Source of the DNA: a virus
Virus record (IMG/VR): IMGVR_UViG_3300025117_000113
Location: 1 to 45,542 of that record
Strand: one strand, 5' to 3'
Length of the DNA stretch: 45,542 nucleotides
Both the position numbers and the translations under genes were made by a program. Below the pieces are notes generated by a model, which saw only the letters and a program-made list of their open reading frames with translations, did not search any database and was not told the DNA's origin. This document shows positions 4,203 to 39,977 of this stretch, piece by piece (within the stretch, counting starts at the first letter, position 1; each line of letters starts with the position of its first letter).

Positions 4203-4275
4203 TACTCCTTTGATTGAGGGAGTAGAAAAATAAATTATGATTAAATACTCCCTCTTTATTAATTTAAAGGAGGGT
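4203..4275 (+). promoter_or_regulatory. Leader with mutually exclusive hairpins overlapping the HEG ribosome site
   Basis: Segment A (TACTCCTT, 4203-4210) can pair with AGGGAGTA (4217-4224). Segment B (GAGGGAGTA, 4216-4224) can instead pair perfectly with C (TACTCCCTC, 4246-4254, followed by TTTATT). C in turn can pair with the Shine-Dalgarno AAAGGAGGG (4266-4274) with one bulge. A:B frees C to mask the ribosome site; B:C frees it or terminates transcription. Read from complementarity only. Confidence 0.5.
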
Positions 4276-4278
4276 AGA

Positions 4279-5307
4279 ATGTCTAAAGCAAAGACTTATG
4301 AAGATATTAGAGACTATTTTAAAAGTAAAGGTGATTATATTGTAGTAACCACTAAAGAAGAGTTTAAAGAACAAACAAAATATAGTAAACCAACAACTAT
4401 ATGTTTAATAATTCAAGATAAAGACAAGTATTATTATAATATAACATATCATAATTTTAGAATAAAACAAGATCCCTTTAAATTTATTAAATTTAATAAA
4501 TTTAATCCATATACAATATATAATATAAAATTATGGTGTAAATTAAACAATAAACCATTTGAATTAGTCAGTGATATATATGATGGTAATGGTAAAAAAC
4601 TTAAATGGAGATGTTTAAAAGAAGAGTGCGGAGGAATATTTGAATCAAGTTGGGCGGATATTTCTCAAGATCATGGTTGTGGTATATGTCACGGTAAACA
4701 AGTTGGTTTATCTAATTGTTTGGCAACAAAAAATCCAGAACTTGCTAAAGAATGGCATCGTACTTTCAATGGAGATTTGACTCCTTATGATGTTACTTTT
4801 TGTAGCAACAAAGAAGTTTGGTGGCAATGTAAAGATAATCCTATACATGTGTGGCAAGCAAAAATATCTAATAGGAAAAACGGTAAGGGGTGTCCAGAAT
4901 GTAGTGAATCAAAAGGTGAAAAAGAATGTAGAAAAGTTTTTATTAAAAAAGAATTTGTTGAGATAAATCAAACAGATTATGATAATTATTTAGACAATCA
5001 TAATAATAACTATTTTATACCACAAAAAACATTTGAAGGTTTGCGAGGAGTTGGTAATGGATTATTATCTTATGATTTTTATTTATCAAAATATAATCTT
5101 CTTGTAGAATATCAAGGTATTCAACATGAAGGTTTTTGCAAGGGTTTACACAAATCTATTGAAGACTTCGAAAAACAAGTAGAACATGATAGGCGTAAGA
5201 AAGAATATGCCCTATCAAATGGATATAATTTTCTAGAAGTTTGGTACTGGGATTTTGAGAATATTGAAGAAATACTTAAAAAAGAATTTTCTAAATATGA
5301 AACATAA
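4279..5307 (+). CDS. Homing endonuclease: zinc-ribbon modules plus Vsr/EDxHD-type nuclease
   Basis: Start chosen at ATG 4279 (MSKAKTYED), with AAAGGAGGG just upstream, rather than the longer frame from 4237. The 342-residue product begins with two modules of the 61-62-residue type found in the HEG at 21824 (second copy NPYTIYNIKLWCKLNNK with a Cys pair). It continues with a treble-clef-like zinc module (LATKNPELAKEWH...WWQCK...GCPEC) and ends with the nuclease: LSYDFYLSKYNLLVEYQG, QHE, then EHDRRKKEYA and FLEVWYWDF. Acidic and His residues of the EDxHD active site are visible. Freestanding between phoH and the HU gene. The nuclease domain is very close to that of the HEG at 28508. Confidence 0.8.
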   Translation: MSKAKTYEDIRDYFKSKGDYIVVTTKEEFKEQTKYSKPTTICLIIQDKDKYYYNITYHNFRIKQDPFKFIKFNKFNPYTIYNIKLWCKLNNKPFELVSDIYDGNGKKLKWRCLKEECGGIFESSWADISQDHGCGICHGKQVGLSNCLATKNPELAKEWHRTFNGDLTPYDVTFCSNKEVWWQCKDNPIHVWQAKISNRKNGKGCPECSESKGEKECRKVFIKKEFVEINQTDYDNYLDNHNNNYFIPQKTFEGLRGVGNGLLSYDFYLSKYNLLVEYQGIQHEGFCKGLHKSIEDFEKQVEHDRRKKEYALSNGYNFLEVWYWDFENIEEILKKEFSKYET

Positions 5308-8470: not shown

Positions 8471-8528
8471 AATAAGCAGACTAGACTGATCATCGAAAAG
8501 CGTAATCCTTAACGCCTGTTTGCTTATT
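8471..8528 (+). promoter_or_regulatory. Structured leader of the primase gene
   Basis: AATAAGCAGAC (8471-8481) pairs with GTTTGCTTATT (8518-8528), 11 bp with one G-U. Inside, GCG (8500-8502) and CGC (8513-8515) close a second hairpin. It lies 50 nt before the primase start. Leader control or mRNA protection is plausible; no known riboswitch is recognised. Confidence 0.45.
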
Positions 8529-8576
8529 ATTTAAATTAAGGAAACAAATAAAAATATTGAAGGAGATGTTTAAGAA

Positions 8577-15456: not shown

Positions 15457-15532
15457 GAAGATAGGTTTTTGGGATTAGCTATCCCATCTCTGCACCCTAT
15501 CTTCTATTTACTTTTTAGTGGTTAGTGCAGAG
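15457..15532 (+). promoter_or_regulatory. Possible pseudoknot leader of the HNH endonuclease gene
   Basis: GAAGATAGG (15457-15465) pairs with CCTATCTTC (15496-15504) and encloses TGGGAT/ATCCCA (15470-15486). The loop segment CTCTGCAC (15488-15495) can pair with GTGCAGAG (15525-15532) downstream, giving a pseudoknot. CCCTATCTTCT also has partial complementarity to the ribosome site of the HNH gene. Confidence 0.45.
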
Positions 15533-15565
15533 GGAAATATAATTTGCAGAAAGAAGGGTTATAAA

Positions 15566-17056
15566 ATGGAAGAAATTAATCAAGAGTTAGAAGTAAAAAT
15601 GAAGGTTTGCAAAATGTGTTGCGAAGAATTACCATCAACAAAAGAATATTTTCATGTTCATAACGGATGTAAGGACGGTCTAAACTCTGTCTGTAAAAAA
15701 TGCAGAAGTAAATTAGCTTCAGAGAAAAATAGAGGAAATATAAATACTACTGGAGTAAAGAAATGTGTAGATTGTGAAAATATTTTGGAAATAAATTCTA
15801 CAAATTTTAAAACATCTACAAAATCATTGGATGGTTATTTAAATGTTTGCGTTAAGTGCCAAATAAAGCGTAGAGACAAGGAATCTCCCGAAGGATTTAA
15901 AAAATGCTCTAAATGTGATAGAGAATTTCCAATATCTAGGGACTATTTTCAATTAAGTAAAATATCTTTGGATGGGTTTGTGAATACATGTTTGGAGTGC
16001 AACAATAGAAAATTCTTTCCAGACTTTGCAAATGAGCCATGGTCGCAAGAAGATATTAATATTGTAAAAGATAATTATAAAGAGTTATTTACATATGATA
16101 TTATACCACTTTTATCAGTAAAAAGAACAGAAAAATCAATATTACATATGGCAGGTAAACTTGGTTTAAGGAAAATAGAAAGTTATATTGAAAATTATAA
16201 TAGTTTTAAATATAAAATAATAGATAATAAATTACATAAGTATTGCAAATCATGTAAGAGGTATTTGCCTATGGAATACGATTATTTTCCTAAAGATGAA
16301 TCATGTACAGATTCATATCGCAACGTCTGCCGTGAATGCAAAGGAGAATTATTCAGATTTAATTCTGATGTTTATAAATGGTCAGAACAAGATATTCAAA
16401 TTCTAAAAGATAATTATCCTCATATGACTAATAAAGAATTATATAATACATATTTTCCGTTCCTAAGTATAAATAAAATCATGCATAGAGCGAATGATTT
16501 AGGATTTTATAAAACAGAAGAAACTTTACAAAGAGTGCATGATGAAATAGGGAAATTCCATTCTGAAAGATTAATAGGAACAGATAAGTGGAAAAGTGAT
16601 AATAATCCTCAATATGATAGTAAAAGATTTGGTTCATTAAATCCAAATTATAAAGGTGGTATTAGTGCATTATATCAAGAATTAAGAAGAAATTTAAAGC
16701 AATGGAAAATAGATAGTGTTGAGAATTCTAATTATGTTAGCTTGCTTACTGGAAAGAGGTTTAATGATATTCATCATTTGTATTCTTTTGATAATATAGT
16801 TAAAGACACCTTGAGTGAAACCAGATTACCTTTATATGATGATATTTCATTTTATTCAGATGAAGAAATAAAATTATTAGTAGATAAATGTCTTGAAATT
16901 CATTACAGACATCCTTTAGGCGTTTGTTTAGAAGAGCGATATCACGCCAAATTCCATGAGGAGTTTGGATACGGTGGTAATACTGAAGAACAATTTTATG
17001 AGTTTTTAGATAATTATTATAATGGTAAATATAAAGATTTAGAAGAAGTAAGTTAA
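15566..17056 (+). CDS. HNH homing endonuclease with zinc-finger and SANT-like modules
   Basis: ATG 15566 chosen (AAAGAAGGG upstream); the frame is open back to GTG 15518. The 496-residue product has three N-terminal CxxC...CxxC modules of about 45 residues (CKMCCEELPSTKEYF...CKKC and two relatives) and a fourth after residue 225. Two Myb/SANT-like helices (WSQEDINIVKDNY and WSEQDIQILKDNY) are interleaved. The C-terminus is an HNH-type nuclease: LYQELRRNLKQWK, LTGKRFNDIHHL, and HAKFHEEFGYGGNTEEQFYEF. The first His pair and the distal H..FH are present, while the usual Cys before LTG is replaced. Freestanding, just before the terminase genes. Confidence 0.8.
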   Translation: MEEINQELEVKMKVCKMCCEELPSTKEYFHVHNGCKDGLNSVCKKCRSKLASEKNRGNINTTGVKKCVDCENILEINSTNFKTSTKSLDGYLNVCVKCQIKRRDKESPEGFKKCSKCDREFPISRDYFQLSKISLDGFVNTCLECNNRKFFPDFANEPWSQEDINIVKDNYKELFTYDIIPLLSVKRTEKSILHMAGKLGLRKIESYIENYNSFKYKIIDNKLHKYCKSCKRYLPMEYDYFPKDESCTDSYRNVCRECKGELFRFNSDVYKWSEQDIQILKDNYPHMTNKELYNTYFPFLSINKIMHRANDLGFYKTEETLQRVHDEIGKFHSERLIGTDKWKSDNNPQYDSKRFGSLNPNYKGGISALYQELRRNLKQWKIDSVENSNYVSLLTGKRFNDIHHLYSFDNIVKDTLSETRLPLYDDISFYSDEEIKLLVDKCLEIHYRHPLGVCLEERYHAKFHEEFGYGGNTEEQFYEFLDNYYNGKYKDLEEVS

Positions 17057-20146: not shown

Positions 20147-21742
20147 TTGCCAAACCAAAACAATCAAAATAAACCCCTCTCCCCAAATCTTTTCGCATTA
20201 AAAGAATCATGGGAACCATCAAAATCTAAAAACTTCTCTCTATCTCGTATTGCTTCATTCTTCTCCAACAAAAGAAATACAAAAAACAACAAAAACATTA
20301 CAATAGATAAAATAAAACTATGGTTAAATAATCCAATTAAATATCAAACAGAAATTCTCGATTTATCCGATTTATTATATGTCCCTGAAGGGATCTATAA
20401 AACTCTAGTAAATTTAACATCAAATATGGCAACTTTAGATAATTATCTTCAACCAACAAAATCAACAATGAGAAAATTAAATTTAGAATTAAAAGCAAAA
20501 ACTAAATTTGATGAATTAGGGAATCCAATTGATCAAGATGCATTTGATAAAATACTAAACAACTTTGAAAATGAATTTGATACAGTTAGAGATTATATTG
20601 AGAATATTGATATAAAGAAAACTGGAAGAAGAATTATTGAAAGTATAGTTCGATATGGTGCATACTGTGGATTTGAGAAAAACGATGGAGATTTTCCTTA
20701 TTTATGGGATTTGCCAATAAAGTATGTAAGATTGTATTCAATAAAAAGTGGACAATATAAGGTTGAATTCAACTTCAAGTATTTTGATGATTTATCAAGA
20801 GATAATGAATTATCAGAATTTGCATGGGGAGTATATCCTGCTGAATTTAAGGTGTTATATGATAGATATAAGAAAAATCCAGATAAATTAAGATACCCTG
20901 AATGGCAACCATTACCTAGTGAAAAAGTATGTTGTATTAAATTAGGTGGAGATAATGATACATTTTTCTTGCCTTTGTATAGTCAATTGTTTACAGAATT
21001 ATTTTTGTTAAATGATTTGATTGATGAGGAGATTGAAAACTCGCGTGACGACAAAATTAAATTAATAAATATAGAATTTCCAAATCAAGAAGGTGTACCT
21101 TTGGTAGAACCAGAAATCGTTGCACAATGGGTTAACGTGGTAGCTTCGGGTGTTCCATCGTCCGTATCGGTTACGGGCTCTCCTTTTCCGTTAAAAGAGA
21201 TTCCATTTAAATCTATACAAAATGAAAAAACAAATTTAGCTGAATTTGCAAAATCAATGGCTTATATGCAAGCAGGAGCAAATCCTTTATTATTAGGTGG
21301 ATCAAGCACAAATTCATCAGTAGGTGTAACTCAGAATTTAGTTTACATACAGTCTAATGTATTTAGTATATTAGATAAAATACAGAGTTGGTTTAATTAT
21401 CGTATTAGTAATGTAAATTTGCGTAAAAAATACACATTTGAATTAAATATATGGAAAATCACTTGGTATAATAAAACTGAAGAGGTTGAAACCGAATATA
21501 AATTAACTACAATCGGAGGAAGTTTAGCTGTCTTATCCTCAAAGGTTGGACACAATTTTGACTCTTATGACGCAACCTTACAATATGAAAATCTGACAAA
21601 AACTAAGGATAATTGGCGTGTTCCTAAAAATATGAATCAAACAGCAGGAAATGATGATTCAGGTGGAAGACCAACTAAAGCAGATGGTGATTTAAGTAAT
21701 TCTGGCACAATTAGTCGCGATAAGGAAAACAACAAACGATAA
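20147..21742 (+). CDS. Portal protein
   Basis: A 531-residue product from TTG 20147 behind GAAAGGAGG. Position directly after terL, length, and the pattern LSDLLYVPEGIYKTLVNLTSNMATLDNYL, the IPFKSIQNEKTNLAEFAKSMAYMQ helix and AGANPLLLGGSSTNSSVGVT fit portal proteins of Firmicutes phages. It forms the dodecameric DNA channel at one capsid vertex. The last 45 residues are disordered (Asn/Ser/Asp/Gly). The first 100 nt of the gene are C-rich and G-poor compared with the neighbours. A terminator follows at 21752. Confidence 0.85.
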   Translation: MPNQNNQNKPLSPNLFALKESWEPSKSKNFSLSRIASFFSNKRNTKNNKNITIDKIKLWLNNPIKYQTEILDLSDLLYVPEGIYKTLVNLTSNMATLDNYLQPTKSTMRKLNLELKAKTKFDELGNPIDQDAFDKILNNFENEFDTVRDYIENIDIKKTGRRIIESIVRYGAYCGFEKNDGDFPYLWDLPIKYVRLYSIKSGQYKVEFNFKYFDDLSRDNELSEFAWGVYPAEFKVLYDRYKKNPDKLRYPEWQPLPSEKVCCIKLGGDNDTFFLPLYSQLFTELFLLNDLIDEEIENSRDDKIKLINIEFPNQEGVPLVEPEIVAQWVNVVASGVPSSVSVTGSPFPLKEIPFKSIQNEKTNLAEFAKSMAYMQAGANPLLLGGSSTNSSVGVTQNLVYIQSNVFSILDKIQSWFNYRISNVNLRKKYTFELNIWKITWYNKTEEVETEYKLTTIGGSLAVLSSKVGHNFDSYDATLQYENLTKTKDNWRVPKNMNQTAGNDDSGGRPTKADGDLSNSGTISRDKENNKR

Positions 21743-21751
21743 AAAATTTTT

Positions 21752-21804
21752 GTGGCTAGGTCATGCAAACTGAAAAGAAGTTTCCCTGCTTCCTGCCACT
21801 TTTA
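21752..21804 (+). terminator. Terminator between portal and HEG
   Basis: GTGGC-AGG-GCA-AACT (21752-21771) pairs with AGTT-TGC-CCT-GCCAC (21779-21799) with small internal loops, then TTTT. The HEG start lies about 20 nt later, so the HEG needs its own promoter or read-through. Confidence 0.6.
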
Positions 21805-21823
21805 TAATTTAAGGGATTTCTAT

Positions 21824-23320
21824 ATGAAGGGAGATATAATATTGAGAAAAACAGATTATTATGTAGTAAAACAATATGTAGAAGAATTAGGATATGATTT
21901 AATTAGTAAAGAATATTTAAATAATGCACAAAAATTGATTTTAAGAGACAAAGATGGATATTATTATGTAATTCGTTGGGCAGATATTCTTAAAGGATAT
22001 AAACCACGTTTTGTACATAAAGCTAATCCTTATTCTATTGATAATATTAAGTTATTTTTAAAAATTAATAATTCTAAGTTAACTTTATTATCTGAAACAT
22101 TTGAAGGTGAAGATGTTGATTTAAAATTATCTGATAACGAAGGATATTATTATTCATCTCCTTGGTGTAATATAAAAGAACTTAAAGGAATCGCCATTGT
22201 TTCTAAGATTAATACTTTCTCTAATCAAAATATTCAACTATTTTTAGATAAACGTAATATGAATTTTAAATTAATAAGTAGTTTTACAGATAGTAATATT
22301 AAACTAAATCTTATTGATAAATATGGTTATTTATTTAGTATTTCTTGGACTAATCTACATGCTGGTAAAACTCCACAGTTTGTCGAGAAAAATAATCCAC
22401 ATTCAGTACATAATATTAAATTGTTTTTGAAAATAAATAACTATGATTTTACTTTATTGTCTGAAATATATGAAGGAGAAGACATCCCTCTAATTTTATT
22501 AGATAGTGAAGGGTATTATTATTCACAAACTTGGCGAACATTATTAAAACTTACTCGTCAATTATTTGTTAGTGATACTAATACATATTCCACACAAAAC
22601 ATTATATTATTTTTAACTAAGAATAATTCAAAATTAGAACTTATAAGTAAATATAAAAATAGTAAGACTAAACTAGTATTAAGGGATATCAACGGATATT
22701 TATATACCCAATCATGGGGAGATACACAATATTTAAGAATGCCTAGTCTAGCATACAAAGGTAATCCTTACTCAATCCAAAATATTAAGCTTTGGTGTAA
22801 ATTAAATAATAAACCATATAAATTGTTAAGTATGAAATATATTAAAAATAATAAATTATTATTATGGAAATGTTTAGATAATGATTGTGGTGAAGAATTT
22901 AAAATGTGTTGGGCAAATATTTCACAAGGTCAAAATTGCTCGAAATGCAAGTTATCTAAAGGTGAGAGAAGAATAAGGAATTATTTAAAACAAAATTCAA
23001 TTCCACATGACAAAGAGTATACTTTTGATAATTTAGTAGGATTAAGGGGTGGATTGTTACGCTTTGACGTACCAATATTCTATGATGCAGATAGAACAAA
23101 ATTAAAAATGCTTATTGAATTTGATGGTGAACAACATGATAAATGGGTTAATGGATGGATGACAAAGAAAGAATTTAGAAGATTACAAATTCATGATAAA
23201 TTGAAAGATGAATATTGTAAAAATAACAATATACGACTATTACGTATTAAATGGTGTGACTTTGATAACATAGAAGCAATCCTAACAAAAGAACTCAATA
23301 TACTAGCAAAAGTATCATAA
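21824..23320 (+). CDS. Homing endonuclease: six tandem ~61-residue modules plus Vsr/EDxHD nuclease
   Basis: ATG 21824 (AAGGGA upstream) or TTG 21842 (AAGGGAGA upstream) are both well spaced; the longer frame from GTG 21752 overlaps the terminator. The N-terminal two thirds is a tandem array: units begin near nt 22025, 22211, 22394, 22580 and 22763, spaced 62, 61, 62 and 61 residues, and one diverged unit precedes them. Consensus: N-P/T-x-S-x-x-N-I-x-L-F-L-x-x-N-N, then L-L/I-S, then D-x-x-G-Y-x-Y-x-x-x-W. The last unit carries Cys pairs (WKCLDNDCG...NCSKC). The nuclease follows: LLRFDV, LIEFDGEQHD, IHDKLKDEYC, LLRIKWCDFD. The array is probably a modular DNA reader. Confidence 0.8.
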   Translation: MKGDIILRKTDYYVVKQYVEELGYDLISKEYLNNAQKLILRDKDGYYYVIRWADILKGYKPRFVHKANPYSIDNIKLFLKINNSKLTLLSETFEGEDVDLKLSDNEGYYYSSPWCNIKELKGIAIVSKINTFSNQNIQLFLDKRNMNFKLISSFTDSNIKLNLIDKYGYLFSISWTNLHAGKTPQFVEKNNPHSVHNIKLFLKINNYDFTLLSEIYEGEDIPLILLDSEGYYYSQTWRTLLKLTRQLFVSDTNTYSTQNIILFLTKNNSKLELISKYKNSKTKLVLRDINGYLYTQSWGDTQYLRMPSLAYKGNPYSIQNIKLWCKLNNKPYKLLSMKYIKNNKLLLWKCLDNDCGEEFKMCWANISQGQNCSKCKLSKGERRIRNYLKQNSIPHDKEYTFDNLVGLRGGLLRFDVPIFYDADRTKLKMLIEFDGEQHDKWVNGWMTKKEFRRLQIHDKLKDEYCKNNNIRLLRIKWCDFDNIEAILTKELNILAKVS

Positions 23321-23359: not shown

Positions 23360-23536
23360 ATGAATTTCATTCACTGTTTTAATTTAGAACTAAAAAACAA
23401 ATTACTTAAAGATGGATTTAAACTTTTATCTGAAAATAATAGATTCTCTATTTTTGAAAATAACCAATCATTAAATTTTAATTTTAATCAAATTGATAAA
23501 AAACAATTTGTATTTAGCAATAAAATGATATTCTAA
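23360..23536 (+). CDS. Small 58-residue protein next to the head genes, unknown
   Basis: ATG 23360, with GAAAGG at 23341-23346. The product begins MNFIHCFNLELKNKLLKDGF and ends DKKQFVFSNKMIF. It ends 28 nt before the prohead protease gene. The composition (Phe/Asn/Lys) and the layout, a short hydrophobic strand, a helix ending in DGFKLL and a strand SIFENN, suggest a folded mini-protein. A distant resemblance in plan to the 60-residue family (hydrophobic strand, helix, G, strand) is possible but not convincing. Confidence 0.55.
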   Translation: MNFIHCFNLELKNKLLKDGFKLLSENNRFSIFENNQSLNFNFNQIDKKQFVFSNKMIF

Positions 23537-28454: not shown

Positions 28455-28504
28455 AAGGAGTGTAAGCCTTAGTACCTCCTTCAATTTATTAGTGATTGGA
28501 GGAG
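28455..28504 (+). promoter_or_regulatory. Leader with SD-masking hairpin and competing anti-masker
   Basis: CTCCTTCAAT (28476-28485) pairs with ATTGGAGGAG (28495-28504), which contains the HEG ribosome site: 10 bp with one G-U and a 9-nt loop. AAGGAG (28455-28460) can instead pair with CTCCTT (28476-28481) and so free the ribosome site. The HEG ATG is at 28508. Confidence 0.6.
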
Positions 28505-28507
28505 AAA

Positions 28508-29896
28508 ATGGGATTAATAACTAAAGAAGTCGAAGTGGAGTTAAATGGAAATAACGTTAAATATTTAGAAAGTTTAGGATATGAAATTCCTAGAAGAAAA
28601 GATAAAAGAGGTAGAATTAGTTATATAAAAGGACAGAAAATAAAAATAAAACCAAGTGATTTGAAAGATAAAAGTAATGAAAAAGTAGATATTCAATGTG
28701 ACAATGACAATTGCAAAAAGATACTTAAAGATATCAGATGGGAACATTACAAAGACAACATAGAAAAATTTGGAGCTTATTATTGCTATGATTGTGCGAT
28801 GCATTTACATGGAAGGGAAAACATACTTTTAACTAAGTTAAAAAATAGTATATCTTTTAAGCAATGGTGTATTGATAATCATCGTCAAGATTTACTAGAC
28901 AGATGGGACTATGAACTGAATAAATTAAACCCAGATGAAATGTGCTATAGTACATCTAAAAAATATTATTTTAAATGTCCCAATAGCAAACATCCTAGTG
29001 AATTAAAAAGAATAAGTGATATTACTAATATACGTGAAGGAAGTACAAAATGTAATCAGTGTAACTCCTTTGCACAATTAGGAGTAGACAAAATTAGAGA
29101 AAACTTCTTAGATAAATATTGGGATTACGAAAATAATATTGATATTGATCCTTGGAAAATTGCTTCGCGAAGCAATAGTAAAGTTTGGATTAAGTGCCAA
29201 GAAAAAGATTATCATGGAAGCTATGAAATTACTTGTAATGATTTTACAGAAGGTAATAGATGTTCTTATTGTGCAAAAACTAAAGTGCATCCACTTGATA
29301 GTTTAGGAACATTGCATCAAGAAGCGTTAATTGTCTGGTCAGGCATAAATCCAAAATCACCTTTTGAATATGCTCCAAAAAGTCATCAAAAAGTGTATTG
29401 GAAATGCAAAGACGGAAAGCATGATGATTATTTAAGAAGTATAGACGGTTCCAATAGACTTAATTTTCGTTGTCCTGATTGTAATTTCTCTCTAGGAGAA
29501 GAAGAAATAAGTTTCCACTTGATAAATAATAATTGGACAAAAATCTCGCAAGATGATTACGAGAAGTTGTTGGTAGGAAGTATTATCAAATATTACATAC
29601 CACAAAAAACATTTAAGGGATTAATAGGTGTTGGCAATGGTTTATTATCTTATGATTTTTATCTGCCTAAATATAATCTTCTTATTGAGTTTCAAGGCAA
29701 GCAACATGAGAAACCTGTAGATTTTGCAGGTAAAGGGAAAGAATGGGCAGAAAAACAATTCGAACAGCAAAAAGAACACGATAAACGTAAAAGGGAATAC
29801 GCCGAAGAAAATAAAATTAAATTGCTAGAAATATGGTATAAGGATTTTGATAATATAGAGACTATTCTTGAAAAAGAATTGTCTCTTATTAAATAA
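28508..29896 (+). CDS. Homing endonuclease: zinc modules plus Vsr/EDxHD-type nuclease
   Basis: ATG 28508 with GGAGGAG immediately upstream; the frame is open to TTG 28496. The 462-residue product has an N-terminal four-Cys site (CDNDNCKK...YCYDC). Two treble-clef-like modules follow (YYFKCPNSKH...KCNQC; VWIKCQEK...RCSYC), then one more (YWKCKDGKH...FRCPDC). The C-terminal nuclease has LSYDFYLPKYNLLIEFQG, QHE, EHDKRKREYA and LLEIWYKDFD. The nuclease part is nearly the same as in the HEG at 4279, while the N-terminal modules differ, showing module exchange. Freestanding between two virion genes. Confidence 0.8.
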   Translation: MGLITKEVEVELNGNNVKYLESLGYEIPRRKDKRGRISYIKGQKIKIKPSDLKDKSNEKVDIQCDNDNCKKILKDIRWEHYKDNIEKFGAYYCYDCAMHLHGRENILLTKLKNSISFKQWCIDNHRQDLLDRWDYELNKLNPDEMCYSTSKKYYFKCPNSKHPSELKRISDITNIREGSTKCNQCNSFAQLGVDKIRENFLDKYWDYENNIDIDPWKIASRSNSKVWIKCQEKDYHGSYEITCNDFTEGNRCSYCAKTKVHPLDSLGTLHQEALIVWSGINPKSPFEYAPKSHQKVYWKCKDGKHDDYLRSIDGSNRLNFRCPDCNFSLGEEEISFHLINNNWTKISQDDYEKLLVGSIIKYYIPQKTFKGLIGVGNGLLSYDFYLPKYNLLIEFQGKQHEKPVDFAGKGKEWAEKQFEQQKEHDKRKREYAEENKIKLLEIWYKDFDNIETILEKELSLIK

Positions 29897-33782: not shown

Positions 33783-35075
33783 ATGCAATATATAAATAAG
33801 AATTGTTCCATATGCGGAGAGTTAATGATTGGTATACCATCTACAAGACAGCAATGTGATAATTGTAAAAAGAAAAGAAGAAAAGAAATTTGTCATAATC
33901 ATTATAATAGTAAACTCAAACCAAAACAACAAGACAGGCAAAAGGAGTACAAAGATTACTTTGAAGAACTTATATCCATAAATAGTGATCCGAAATATCT
34001 AACCACTAAAGGGTTCAATTCAATTTCTAAATTTAGTATATCTACATATTGTAATTCTTTTGATATTTCATGGTTAGATTGGTTAAAACAATTCAATAAA
34101 TATGATGAGTTGGTTAACTATATTTTAAAAGAATATAGTTATTTTTATGATGCTACTAATTCTCAAGATCTAAAGAATTTCAGTAAAAAACATGAATACA
34201 TTACGATTGATATTTTAACTTCTATTGGACTTGATTTTATTAGAGATAAATGTGGAATTATAAAATCAAGACGCGATAATGAATACTATAAAAATAATTT
34301 TATTGATATAGTTAATAAAATTGGGCATGTTCCTCTCTTTCATGAATTTGCAGAAATATCTCCTATTCCACCAGAGTCATATTCTTCAAGATTTAAATTA
34401 AAGGGAAAAGTTTATGACAATATCGTTAAAATGTATGTTGGTAAAGATGAGTTTACAGAATATAAAATATTACAACAGCAACATAAAACGAATGTAGGCA
34501 AAATAACTTCGACTATAAATAAAAATATAATATCATTAGCAGATTTAGAAGAAGAATTCAGAAAAGTATTTGATGAATGTTTTTTAAATAATGCAGTATA
34601 TCCATCTAGAAGATTATTTAATAAATTATCTAAGTTTGACGACAGAACATACCGTAAAAAATTAGGTTTATCATGGACAAAAGTATGTGAGAGTTACGAA
34701 TATAAGGTTGATAGATATACAAACAAATTTGAAAAATATGTTTTAGGCACAATTTCTAAAATATTAAATGTTGAATGTGATCCACAAAAATCATTTGAGT
34801 GGTTAATTGGAATAAATAATTATCCGTTGTTTTGCGATGGTGTATTTGAAGATTGTAAATTAGTAGTTGAGACGGATGGTAAACACCATAAAATTCCGAT
34901 GAAACAATTTGGTGGTTATGAGAGATTTGAAATACAAAAGCAAAATGACAAACTCAAAGATTATCTTGTTAAGGAACACGGGTACACAATGATTAGAATT
35001 GATATTGATTCAGATTGGTCAAATATTGATTATTTGAAATTACGATTATTAGAAAATGATATTAAAGTAGCATAA
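33783..35075 (+). CDS. Homing endonuclease: zinc finger plus Vsr/EDxHD-type nuclease
   Basis: A 430-residue product from ATG 33783, ribosome site GAGGAGAG. The N-terminus has a four-Cys finger (CSICGELM...QQCDNCKKKRR). The middle is helical (many Tyr and Lys), probably a DNA-binding region with repeated helices that begin in WLDWLKQF and YDDNIVK-like segments. The C-terminal nuclease has LFCDGVFEDCKLVVETDGKHHK, then EIQKQNDKLKDYL and TMIRIDID, so the Glu, Asp and His residues of an EDxHD site are present. It is the most diverged of the full-length nucleases here. Freestanding between tail and fibre genes. Confidence 0.75.
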   Translation: MQYINKNCSICGELMIGIPSTRQQCDNCKKKRRKEICHNHYNSKLKPKQQDRQKEYKDYFEELISINSDPKYLTTKGFNSISKFSISTYCNSFDISWLDWLKQFNKYDELVNYILKEYSYFYDATNSQDLKNFSKKHEYITIDILTSIGLDFIRDKCGIIKSRRDNEYYKNNFIDIVNKIGHVPLFHEFAEISPIPPESYSSRFKLKGKVYDNIVKMYVGKDEFTEYKILQQQHKTNVGKITSTINKNIISLADLEEEFRKVFDECFLNNAVYPSRRLFNKLSKFDDRTYRKKLGLSWTKVCESYEYKVDRYTNKFEKYVLGTISKILNVECDPQKSFEWLIGINNYPLFCDGVFEDCKLVVETDGKHHKIPMKQFGGYERFEIQKQNDKLKDYLVKEHGYTMIRIDIDSDWSNIDYLKLRLLENDIKVA

Positions 35076-38495: not shown

Positions 38496-39977
38496 ATGAA
38501 TAATAATAAACAAATATTCTTAGAAAATTTACCAAGACATAGAGGTAAAAATATTGATTGGGAAAAAAGTGTTGGAAATACTGTTAATTTTTTTTATGAT
38601 GATATTGAAGGTGAAATAGAAATTGTTAGTTATGATACTAAAAGCGGATATTTAAAAATTCAATACTTAAATCATGATATATTTAGAATCAAGTATGGCA
38701 ATTTTACTAATTGTAAATTAGGTAAATTATTAGGAAAAAAGACAAGCGAATTTAAAGTTAAAATTGGAACAAGGTTTGTTGGCAACAAGAGAGATTTGGT
38801 TATTATGGATAGAGAATATAGAAAAGATAGTAATGGTTTTAATAGAAAATATTATAAATATAAATGTAATGTTTGTGGGTTTTGTGATGATGGAAGTTGG
38901 ATGCTAGAGAGTGATTTATTAAATAAGGGTGGTTGTGCTTGTTGCCGTGGTGCAATAATAGTATTGGGAATAAATTCAATATTCGATACAACTCCTTGGC
39001 TAGTGAAATATTTTAAAAATCCTGAAGATGCTAAATTATATACTAAATCAAGTAGTGCTTTAATTAATCCAATTTGCCCAGACTGTGGACAAATAAAAAA
39101 TAAATCAATGTCTATCAATTCAATATATAATACTAGATCAATAGGATGTCAGTGTTCAGATGGGATAAGTTATCCAAATAAATTTGCATATTCATTATTG
39201 AATCAATTAAATGAAACTTATAAATTTGATTATTTAGAACATGAGTATAGCCCAGAATGGATTAAACCAAAGAGATATGATAATTATTTTGAATATAATA
39301 ATAAAAAATACATATTAGAGATGGATGGAAGTTTAGGGCATGGGAATGAAATACATAGTAAATCAAATATGACTATTGAAGAATCTATCGCCATTGATAA
39401 TTACAAAGACGATATGGCTAAAAAATATAATATAATAGTTATTAGAATTGATTGTCAAAAATCAGATATGGAATATATAAAAAACAATATATTAGATTCA
39501 AAATTAAACGGTATATTTGATTTATCAATAATACAATGGAATAAAATTGAAGAATATGCTTTATCTAATATTGTATTAGAAACGTGTAAATTAAAAAGCG
39601 AAAATCAAGATTTCAGCACAACAGATATTGGAAATATTATGGGCATTCATAAGTGTACTGTAATAAGATATCTCAAAAAGGGGACTAAAATTTGGGATTG
39701 GGTAAAATATAACCCTGAAGACGAGACAAGTAAATTTTGTAGTAAAGCAGGTAAAATGGGTGGAAAACAAATTGAAGTATTTAAAGATGATTCAAATTTA
39801 GGAATTTTTACATCTATTATGGAGTTAGAGAAACAATCTGAAAGTTTATTTGGTGTAAAATTATTACATAGTAAAATATCAGCCGTATGTTTAGGTAAAC
39901 GTAAACACCATAAAGGATTTACATTTAAATATGTAAACAATAATAACGAAGCGCTTTTACAAGTCGCTTCATTTTAA
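38496..39977 (+). CDS. Homing endonuclease: zinc modules, EDxHD-like nuclease, NUMOD-like tail
   Basis: A 493-residue product from ATG 38496 behind AAAGGTGG. Two N-terminal Cys-pair modules (CNVCGFCDDGSW...GCACC; CPDCGQIK...GCQCSDG) come first. The nuclease is around 215-320 (LEHEYSPEWIKPKRYDNYF, YILEMDGSLGHG, DDMAKKYNIIVIRID). A helix-turn-helix follows (TTDIGNIMGIHKCTVIRYL), then a NUMOD1-like DNA-binding tail (IEVFKDDSNLGIFTSIMELE ... GKRKHHKGFTFKYV). The order differs from the other HEGs, with DNA-binding parts on both sides of the nuclease. It sits between the fibre gene and a remnant of a second fibre tip. Confidence 0.78.
   Translation: MNNNKQIFLENLPRHRGKNIDWEKSVGNTVNFFYDDIEGEIEIVSYDTKSGYLKIQYLNHDIFRIKYGNFTNCKLGKLLGKKTSEFKVKIGTRFVGNKRDLVIMDREYRKDSNGFNRKYYKYKCNVCGFCDDGSWMLESDLLNKGGCACCRGAIIVLGINSIFDTTPWLVKYFKNPEDAKLYTKSSSALINPICPDCGQIKNKSMSINSIYNTRSIGCQCSDGISYPNKFAYSLLNQLNETYKFDYLEHEYSPEWIKPKRYDNYFEYNNKKYILEMDGSLGHGNEIHSKSNMTIEESIAIDNYKDDMAKKYNIIVIRIDCQKSDMEYIKNNILDSKLNGIFDLSIIQWNKIEEYALSNIVLETCKLKSENQDFSTTDIGNIMGIHKCTVIRYLKKGTKIWDWVKYNPEDETSKFCSKAGKMGGKQIEVFKDDSNLGIFTSIMELEKQSESLFGVKLLHSKISAVCLGKRKHHKGFTFKYVNNNNEALLQVASF
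39948..39975 (+). terminator. Weak hairpin at HEG 3' end
   Basis: GAAGCG (39948-39953) pairs with CGCTTC (39965-39970), overlapping the stop region, followed by ATTTT. Confidence 0.4.

Follow-up and report, generated by a model that had tools for sequence, protein, structure and literature searches.

The gene at the portal/protease junction of the window, the 45,542-nucleotide stretch of viral DNA analysed in this study, is probably a free-standing homing enzyme in which an N-(A-B)k-Z recognition array has been lengthened by recombination. The computations behind this explanation found repeated units, homology of the units to zinc modules, a nuclease fold, an insertion slot with both occupied and empty sites, a mosaic joint within the array, and purifying selection. 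The locus is organised as follows.

20147..21742, + strand: portal-like gene, left flank of the slot (function by position and sequence reading)
21749..21815, + strand: int-alpA-type structured leader RNA (RF02996), lying between the portal stop and the start of the homing endonuclease gene (HEG); Rfam match at gathering score
21842..23320, + strand: homing-endonuclease-type gene (PHROG 559 match, E 2e-51)
22955..23320, + strand: C-terminal EDxHD/Vsr-like nuclease domain (LIEFDGEQH...HDKLKDEYC), from an alignment of 21 relatives and Foldseek
23360..23536, + strand: small host ORF (MNFIHCF...) that forms the right flank of the slot and also occurs in HEG-free relatives

Repeat units and their zinc-module relatives

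In this study, we found the motif N-x-[YFH]-S-x-x-NI at residues 92, 154, 215, 277, and 338, where it marks the starts of five units. The spacings between these units were 62, 61, 62, and 61 residues, and one divergent unit lay in front of them. The original prediction had described the same regular spacing, which was thus recovered, and the units scored above shuffled ones. Unit-to-unit local alignment scores were 49-175, compared to 23.5 +/- 4.8 for shuffled units (99.9th percentile 49, maximum 70). The weakest pair, unit 1 vs unit 6, scored at the 99.9th percentile of the shuffles, and most pairs were far beyond chance. Pairwise identity among the units was 27-56%. Units 2/4 (56%) and units 3/5 (43%) were closer to each other than all other pairs, indicating that the true period is two units (123 aa) and that the array reads N-A-B-A-B-Z. 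Unit 1 was a distinct N-cap type. The six units were delimited as follows.

21839..22024 (about), + strand: unit 1, N type, metal-free N-terminal module (HMM score 68)
22025..22210, + strand: unit 2, A type, 62 aa, metal-free, net charge -2
22211..22393, + strand: unit 3, B type, 61 aa, metal-free, net charge +3; mosaic, one half B-like and then one half N-like
22394..22579, + strand: unit 4, A type, 62 aa, metal-free, net charge -3; corresponds to the A unit found in L036, a 3-unit allele
22580..22762, + strand: unit 5, B type, 61 aa, metal-free, net charge +6
22763..22948, + strand: unit 6, Z type, Cys4 (CxxxxC...CxxC), DUF4379-like module

The general formula of the array, as read from sequence, is N-(A-B)k-Z, and k=2 in the window protein. 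Mean net charges over 14 alleles were +2.9 for N, -0.2 for A, +2.6 for B, and +3.4 for Z units. All four zinc ligands (Cys4, as CxxxxC...CxxC) were found in unit 6 and in no other unit; units 1-5 had at most one Cys each. The Cys pairs are thus confined to the last unit, as had been predicted. Unit 6 remained below the curated Pfam cut-off (17.8 vs 24.5).

We investigated the relationship of the metal-free units to zinc modules by profile comparison. A profile of the metal-free units matched the zinc-array modules of other phages with an hhalign probability of 97.9 (E 5.8e-13) and the family's own Cys unit with 98.9, compared to 0.2 for an unrelated control, the nuclease profile. The zinc-array relatives matched Pfam CapR and DUF4379. 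Zinc and metal-free units were also mixed within single arrays at three loci (L255, L260, and L261). In the former ligand region of the metal-free units, D was found in 20/21, G in 20/21, Y in 21/21, and a second Y in 19/21. Since the ligand positions are near-fixed as D, Y, and G, the zinc site appears to have been replaced rather than to have decayed. It had been proposed that the units descend from a zinc unit that lost its metal, and both the profile scores and the mixed arrays agree with this. Loss of metal from CapR/DUF4379-type zinc modules is therefore well supported by these alignments. The wide distribution of zinc arrays suggests, on an unrooted comparison, that the zinc form came first.

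No NCBIfam match was obtained with the window protein, and the zinc-module profile gave only chance-level matches in a PDB sequence search; the full profile matched kinetoplastid mitoribosome DUF4379 proteins. A Pfam IPT match reached its cut-off (20) and was rejected as spurious because it spans just 46 residues of one repeat. Weak Pfam matches to TusA, Kinase-PolyVal, and DUF4828 were discarded as spurious as well.

The structure of the array was predicted with AlphaFold2. The whole protein was modelled with pLDDT 89.8 and pTM 0.60 from a shallow alignment of 22 rows, and the four middle units alone with pLDDT 88.5 and pTM 0.77 from 14 rows. Each unit was modelled as a helix, two or three strands, and a short helix. 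The pTM of 0.77 is higher than expected for unconnected beads, and this model confidence suggests that the units may be stacked rather than loosely strung. When the four-unit array was compared with PDB structures by Foldseek, no matches at E<=0.001 were obtained; matches of MORN type were judged irrelevant.

A paralogous gene in the same genome carries related units.

4237..5307, + strand: paralogous HEG with a degenerate N-type unit, a Cys unit (about 4504-4689), DUF4379 repeats, and a related nuclease

This gene had been called a two-unit version of the array. The description is fair as far as the degenerate metal-free unit and the Cys unit are concerned, but it is loose, as DUF4379 repeats follow them. 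Six HEG-like or nuclease-like ORFs besides the gene under study were noted in the 45 kb by reading and some matches (2410-2856, 4237-5307, 15518-17056, 28496-29896, 33783-35075, and 38496-39977), and ORF 2410-2856 looks like a nuclease-only remnant.

Nuclease domain, gene start, and leader RNA

The E, D, H, D, and K columns of the nuclease were invariant in the alignment of 21 relatives. Foldseek matched the AlphaFold2 model of the whole protein to chain B of 3r3p, the catalytic domain of I-Bth0305I, with a probability of 0.99, a TM of 0.67 of the target, and E 0.17. A PDB sequence search with the nuclease profile gave no match. The nuclease is thus related to I-Bth0305I (EDxHD) by predicted fold only. 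Against viral models, 240 Foldseek matches were found at E<=0.001, many of them labelled zinc-ribbon or DUF2726 nucleases or homing endonucleases, from phages and giant viruses. The original prediction of a nuclease with a modular N-terminal region resembling a DNA reader was supported.

The ends of the gene were examined next to related loci. The final codons AAAGTATCATAA are equal to the host flank of an empty site. Several of the HEGs found in the slot terminate with K-(V/A)-S-stop or a similar sequence, and the empty site reads AAGTATCATAA there. As these shared ends match the empty site, the last codons were probably taken from the host flank. At the other end, the ORF 21752-23320 (+ strand) has 522 codons when counted from GTG. 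Because GTG 21752 lies inside the structured leader RNA, translation probably starts at ATG 21824, as in the original prediction, or at TTG 21842. TTG 21842, 8 bases downstream of AAGGGAG, is the more likely start; ATG 21824 and GTG 21752 are the alternatives.

The RF02996 leader was found upstream of the HEG in 7 of the 14 related loci scanned (L009, L010, L011, L013, L016, L047, and L053). The leader alignment showed compensatory changes, with both sides altered, at 4 pairs. No int-alpA-type RNA in a phage HEG context was found in the literature search. A second int-alpA-type RNA (RF02996) lies at 8474-8541, upstream of the non-HEG ORF 8577, which is primase-like by sequence reading. A TATAT/ATATA hairpin was predicted from the leader alignment, with the AAGGGAG ribosome-binding site (about 21824-21845) in its loop, and this hairpin might tune HEG translation. 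In L034 and L070, where the slot holds HEGs with all-zinc arrays, the HEG is preceded by a different leader hairpin (GAGG...CCTC).

Insertion slot and probable lengthening of the array

A scan for the portal protein yielded 53 loci of related phages. The slot was empty in seven of these (L030, L041, L042, L043, L045, L052, and L054), in which the interval from the portal to the protease-like gene was 224-301 bp. The interval was about 1.3-3.3 kb in most other loci having both flanks, a range partly due to divergent protease-gene starts. Filled slots carried either members of the HEG family studied here or nucleases of other types. Presence/absence polymorphism at a fixed portal/protease site, as expected of a homing gene, was therefore observed. 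In L051, L055, L062, and L069, a different nuclease family with an N-terminus that is SANT-like by reading was seen in the same slot, which marks it as a hotspot of unrelated HEGs.

Same-family loci at the slot have 5, 3, or 1 metal-free units ahead of one Cys unit (k = 2, 1, and 0). Since the same phage recurs among many of the compared contigs, there are few independent alleles, and the 1/3/5 series is built on few independent events. A rule of odd metal-free counts holds at the slot and was rejected as a general one, since L082, L084, L086, and L087, at other sites, have two metal-free units each. Two alleles (L012 and L021) were frameshifted and decayed. Comparison of the whole window protein with L009 and L010 gave a dN/dS of 0.17, and all units are under purifying selection. 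The small ORF at 23360-23536 lies downstream of the HEG, and a similar-looking LKPFYCYSNRLKKELL... ORF was seen upstream of the HEG in some loci; this observation covers L028, L036, L046, L051, L055, L057, L058, and L069. The LKPFYCYSNRLKKELL small ORF may travel with the HEG.

We investigated how the array may have become longer. Protein alignment showed that the 5-unit proteins differ from the 3-unit proteins by one extra A-B block of ~123 residues. A tree built from A-B pairs set the first pair of the 5-unit proteins apart as a separate clade (100/100). In single-unit trees, the second (nuclease-proximal) A units grouped with L036 (97/90). Unit 3 was found to be a hybrid. Its first half is nearest to B units, and its second half shares 66-74% of its residues with the N unit of L036. 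Identity to L036 climbs across unit 3 from 2-4/15 to 13-15/15 residues and drops abruptly past the Cys unit, where L036 has a DUF4379 repeat and a different nuclease. The mosaic joint in unit 3 and the L036-like remainder point to out-of-register recombination between two HEG alleles, a process with a precedent in the repeat-to-repeat recombination published for ICP1 gp174 (PMC10448857). An exchange of this kind, at equivalent module points, would be the simplest account of the k=2 array. The crossover would have occurred within a module, between a k=1 (N-A-B) array and an L036-like N-A-B-Z array, and would have extended the array by one A-B pair at its N-terminal side.

Synonymous divergence was also compared unit by unit between the window and L009 and L010. 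Against L009, it was 0.09 in B1/A2 (22211-22579) and 0.36-0.56 in N, A1, and B2. This uneven divergence suggests recent unit-scale recombination between close relatives.

Candidate functions and comparison with known systems

The preferred explanation can be stated as a mechanism. The gene would be a free-standing HEG located at the portal/protease junction in a low-GC phage, and homing activity would be its role. The C-terminal EDxHD/Vsr-like domain would cut DNA. The N-terminal region, with its six units, would recognise the target. It consists of CapR/DUF4379-type modules, and in five of them the zinc ligands have been permanently replaced; homology suggests that the metal-free units may bind DNA. 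The N-(A-B)k-Z array would act pairwise, stacked rather than strung loosely. The basic N, B, and Z units are likely to lie on DNA, and the acidic A units may serve mainly as structural partners or spacers, a division of labour between A and B that we infer.

The alternatives differ mainly in what the A-B pairs do. In a linear code like that of TAL effectors, each 61-62-residue unit would read a fixed number of base pairs ahead of the nuclease. The regular unit length, variable columns interspersed with conserved ones, array lengths that differ among relatives, and the stacked model are all consistent with such a code. However, there are two alternating unit types of opposite mean charge and no one- or two-column hypervariable signature, and the published description of the zinc relatives is one of several domains that fold independently, rather than of a code (PMC10448857). 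The code is thus improbable. That each unit should cover a constant length of DNA is itself doubtful, because the A units are near-neutral to acidic and the same slot holds 1, 3, or 5 metal-free units. A serious rival, with a modest share of the probability, is that only the N-cap, the Z unit, and the nuclease touch the target, while the metal-free A-B pairs are spacers or protein-binding (dimerisation) elements that fix how far the cut lies from the contact. It is serious because the A units are acidic and the unit number varies at one slot. The loss of metal fits it too, as does the EDxHD enzyme I-Bth0305I, which forms a dimer on a target of nearly 60 bp (PMC3943268). However, positive charge is kept in the B units, every unit is under purifying selection, and homologous zinc units stand at the same positions of other arrays.

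The gene might also be a domesticated phage nuclease or regulator, acting for instance against competitors or satellites in the manner of the HEG-derived CapR repressor. CapR-domain proteins are known to have been domesticated (PMC10448857), and the coding sequence is intact and conserved. However, the slot is empty in close relatives and holds unrelated nucleases in others, and frameshifted copies occur, which is the usual gain and loss of homing genes; domestication is thus quite unlikely. The preferred explanation, a homing enzyme with a recombination-lengthened recognition array, has a bolder form in which the array is a metal-independent, rigidly stacked DNA-reading repeat. The A-B pair (123 aa) would then be the working unit, and pairwise length change by recombination would give a graded recognition length at one site. 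We regard this form as rather unlikely.

Previous reports have described related enzymes. T5orf172 (GIY-YIG) HEGs with repeated CapR/DUF723/DUF4379 zinc domains were reported in 2023, and CapR is a zinc-finger DNA-binding repressor (PMC10448857). These HEGs resemble the window gene in their tandem homologous modules, which bind DNA there, in in-frame recombination of repeats, and in domain swapping between HEGs, but they have another nuclease family and zinc-binding modules arranged as 'beads on a string' (PMC10448857). According to a 2025 report, CapR-like ~60-aa domains are combined with an EDxHD/Vsr nuclease in phage group II introns, and thousands of unannotated UniProt relatives were noted (PMC12350094). 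In these enzymes, as in the window gene, several domains of ~60 aa that are related to CapR/DUF4379/DUF723 precede an EDxHD/Vsr-type nuclease of ~100 aa. They are intron-borne with three to five domains, whereas the window gene is free-standing and 5/6 of its units are without zinc ligands. Neither metal-free units nor a two-unit period appears in the passage describing these enzymes (PMC12350094). The original prediction had suggested a natural modular nuclease. Since modular zinc-domain arrays in phage homing enzymes are published (PMC10448857 and PMC12350094), the novelty does not lie there.

I-Bth0305I is similar in its predicted catalytic-domain fold, its multi-domain build, and its long target, of which it contacts nearly 60 bp as a dimer (PMC3943268). 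It has no profile-level sequence match, and the comparison is limited to the catalytic domain. TAL effectors share a regular tandem array with the window protein. However, no homology was seen or is expected, the unit here is twice as long, the types alternate, and evidence of a base code is lacking.

Units 2-5 alone gave no match in a tblastn search of 50,697 phage records. Among the whole-protein matches examined in these records, P1048 and RQ1 were zinc arrays and TR-TP1 was a divergent mix. No description of a metal-free version of the array was found in the literature searched, a scope that left out most subscription journals. Modular zinc-domain arrays in phage homing enzymes and the CapR-like plus EDxHD/Vsr architecture are already published. 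What appears to be new is a metal-free array that carries conserved substitutions in place of the ligands and repeats every two units, together with its lengthening through recombination of related copies. The 1-, 3-, and 5-unit alleles in one slot are natural variants for relating array length to target recognition. If the metal-free units bind DNA, they would offer a cysteine-free and zinc-free modular scaffold. The mosaic joint would represent one route by which such arrays lengthen, and the gene adds a free-standing, metal-free branch to the large and largely uncharacterised EDxHD/Vsr family.
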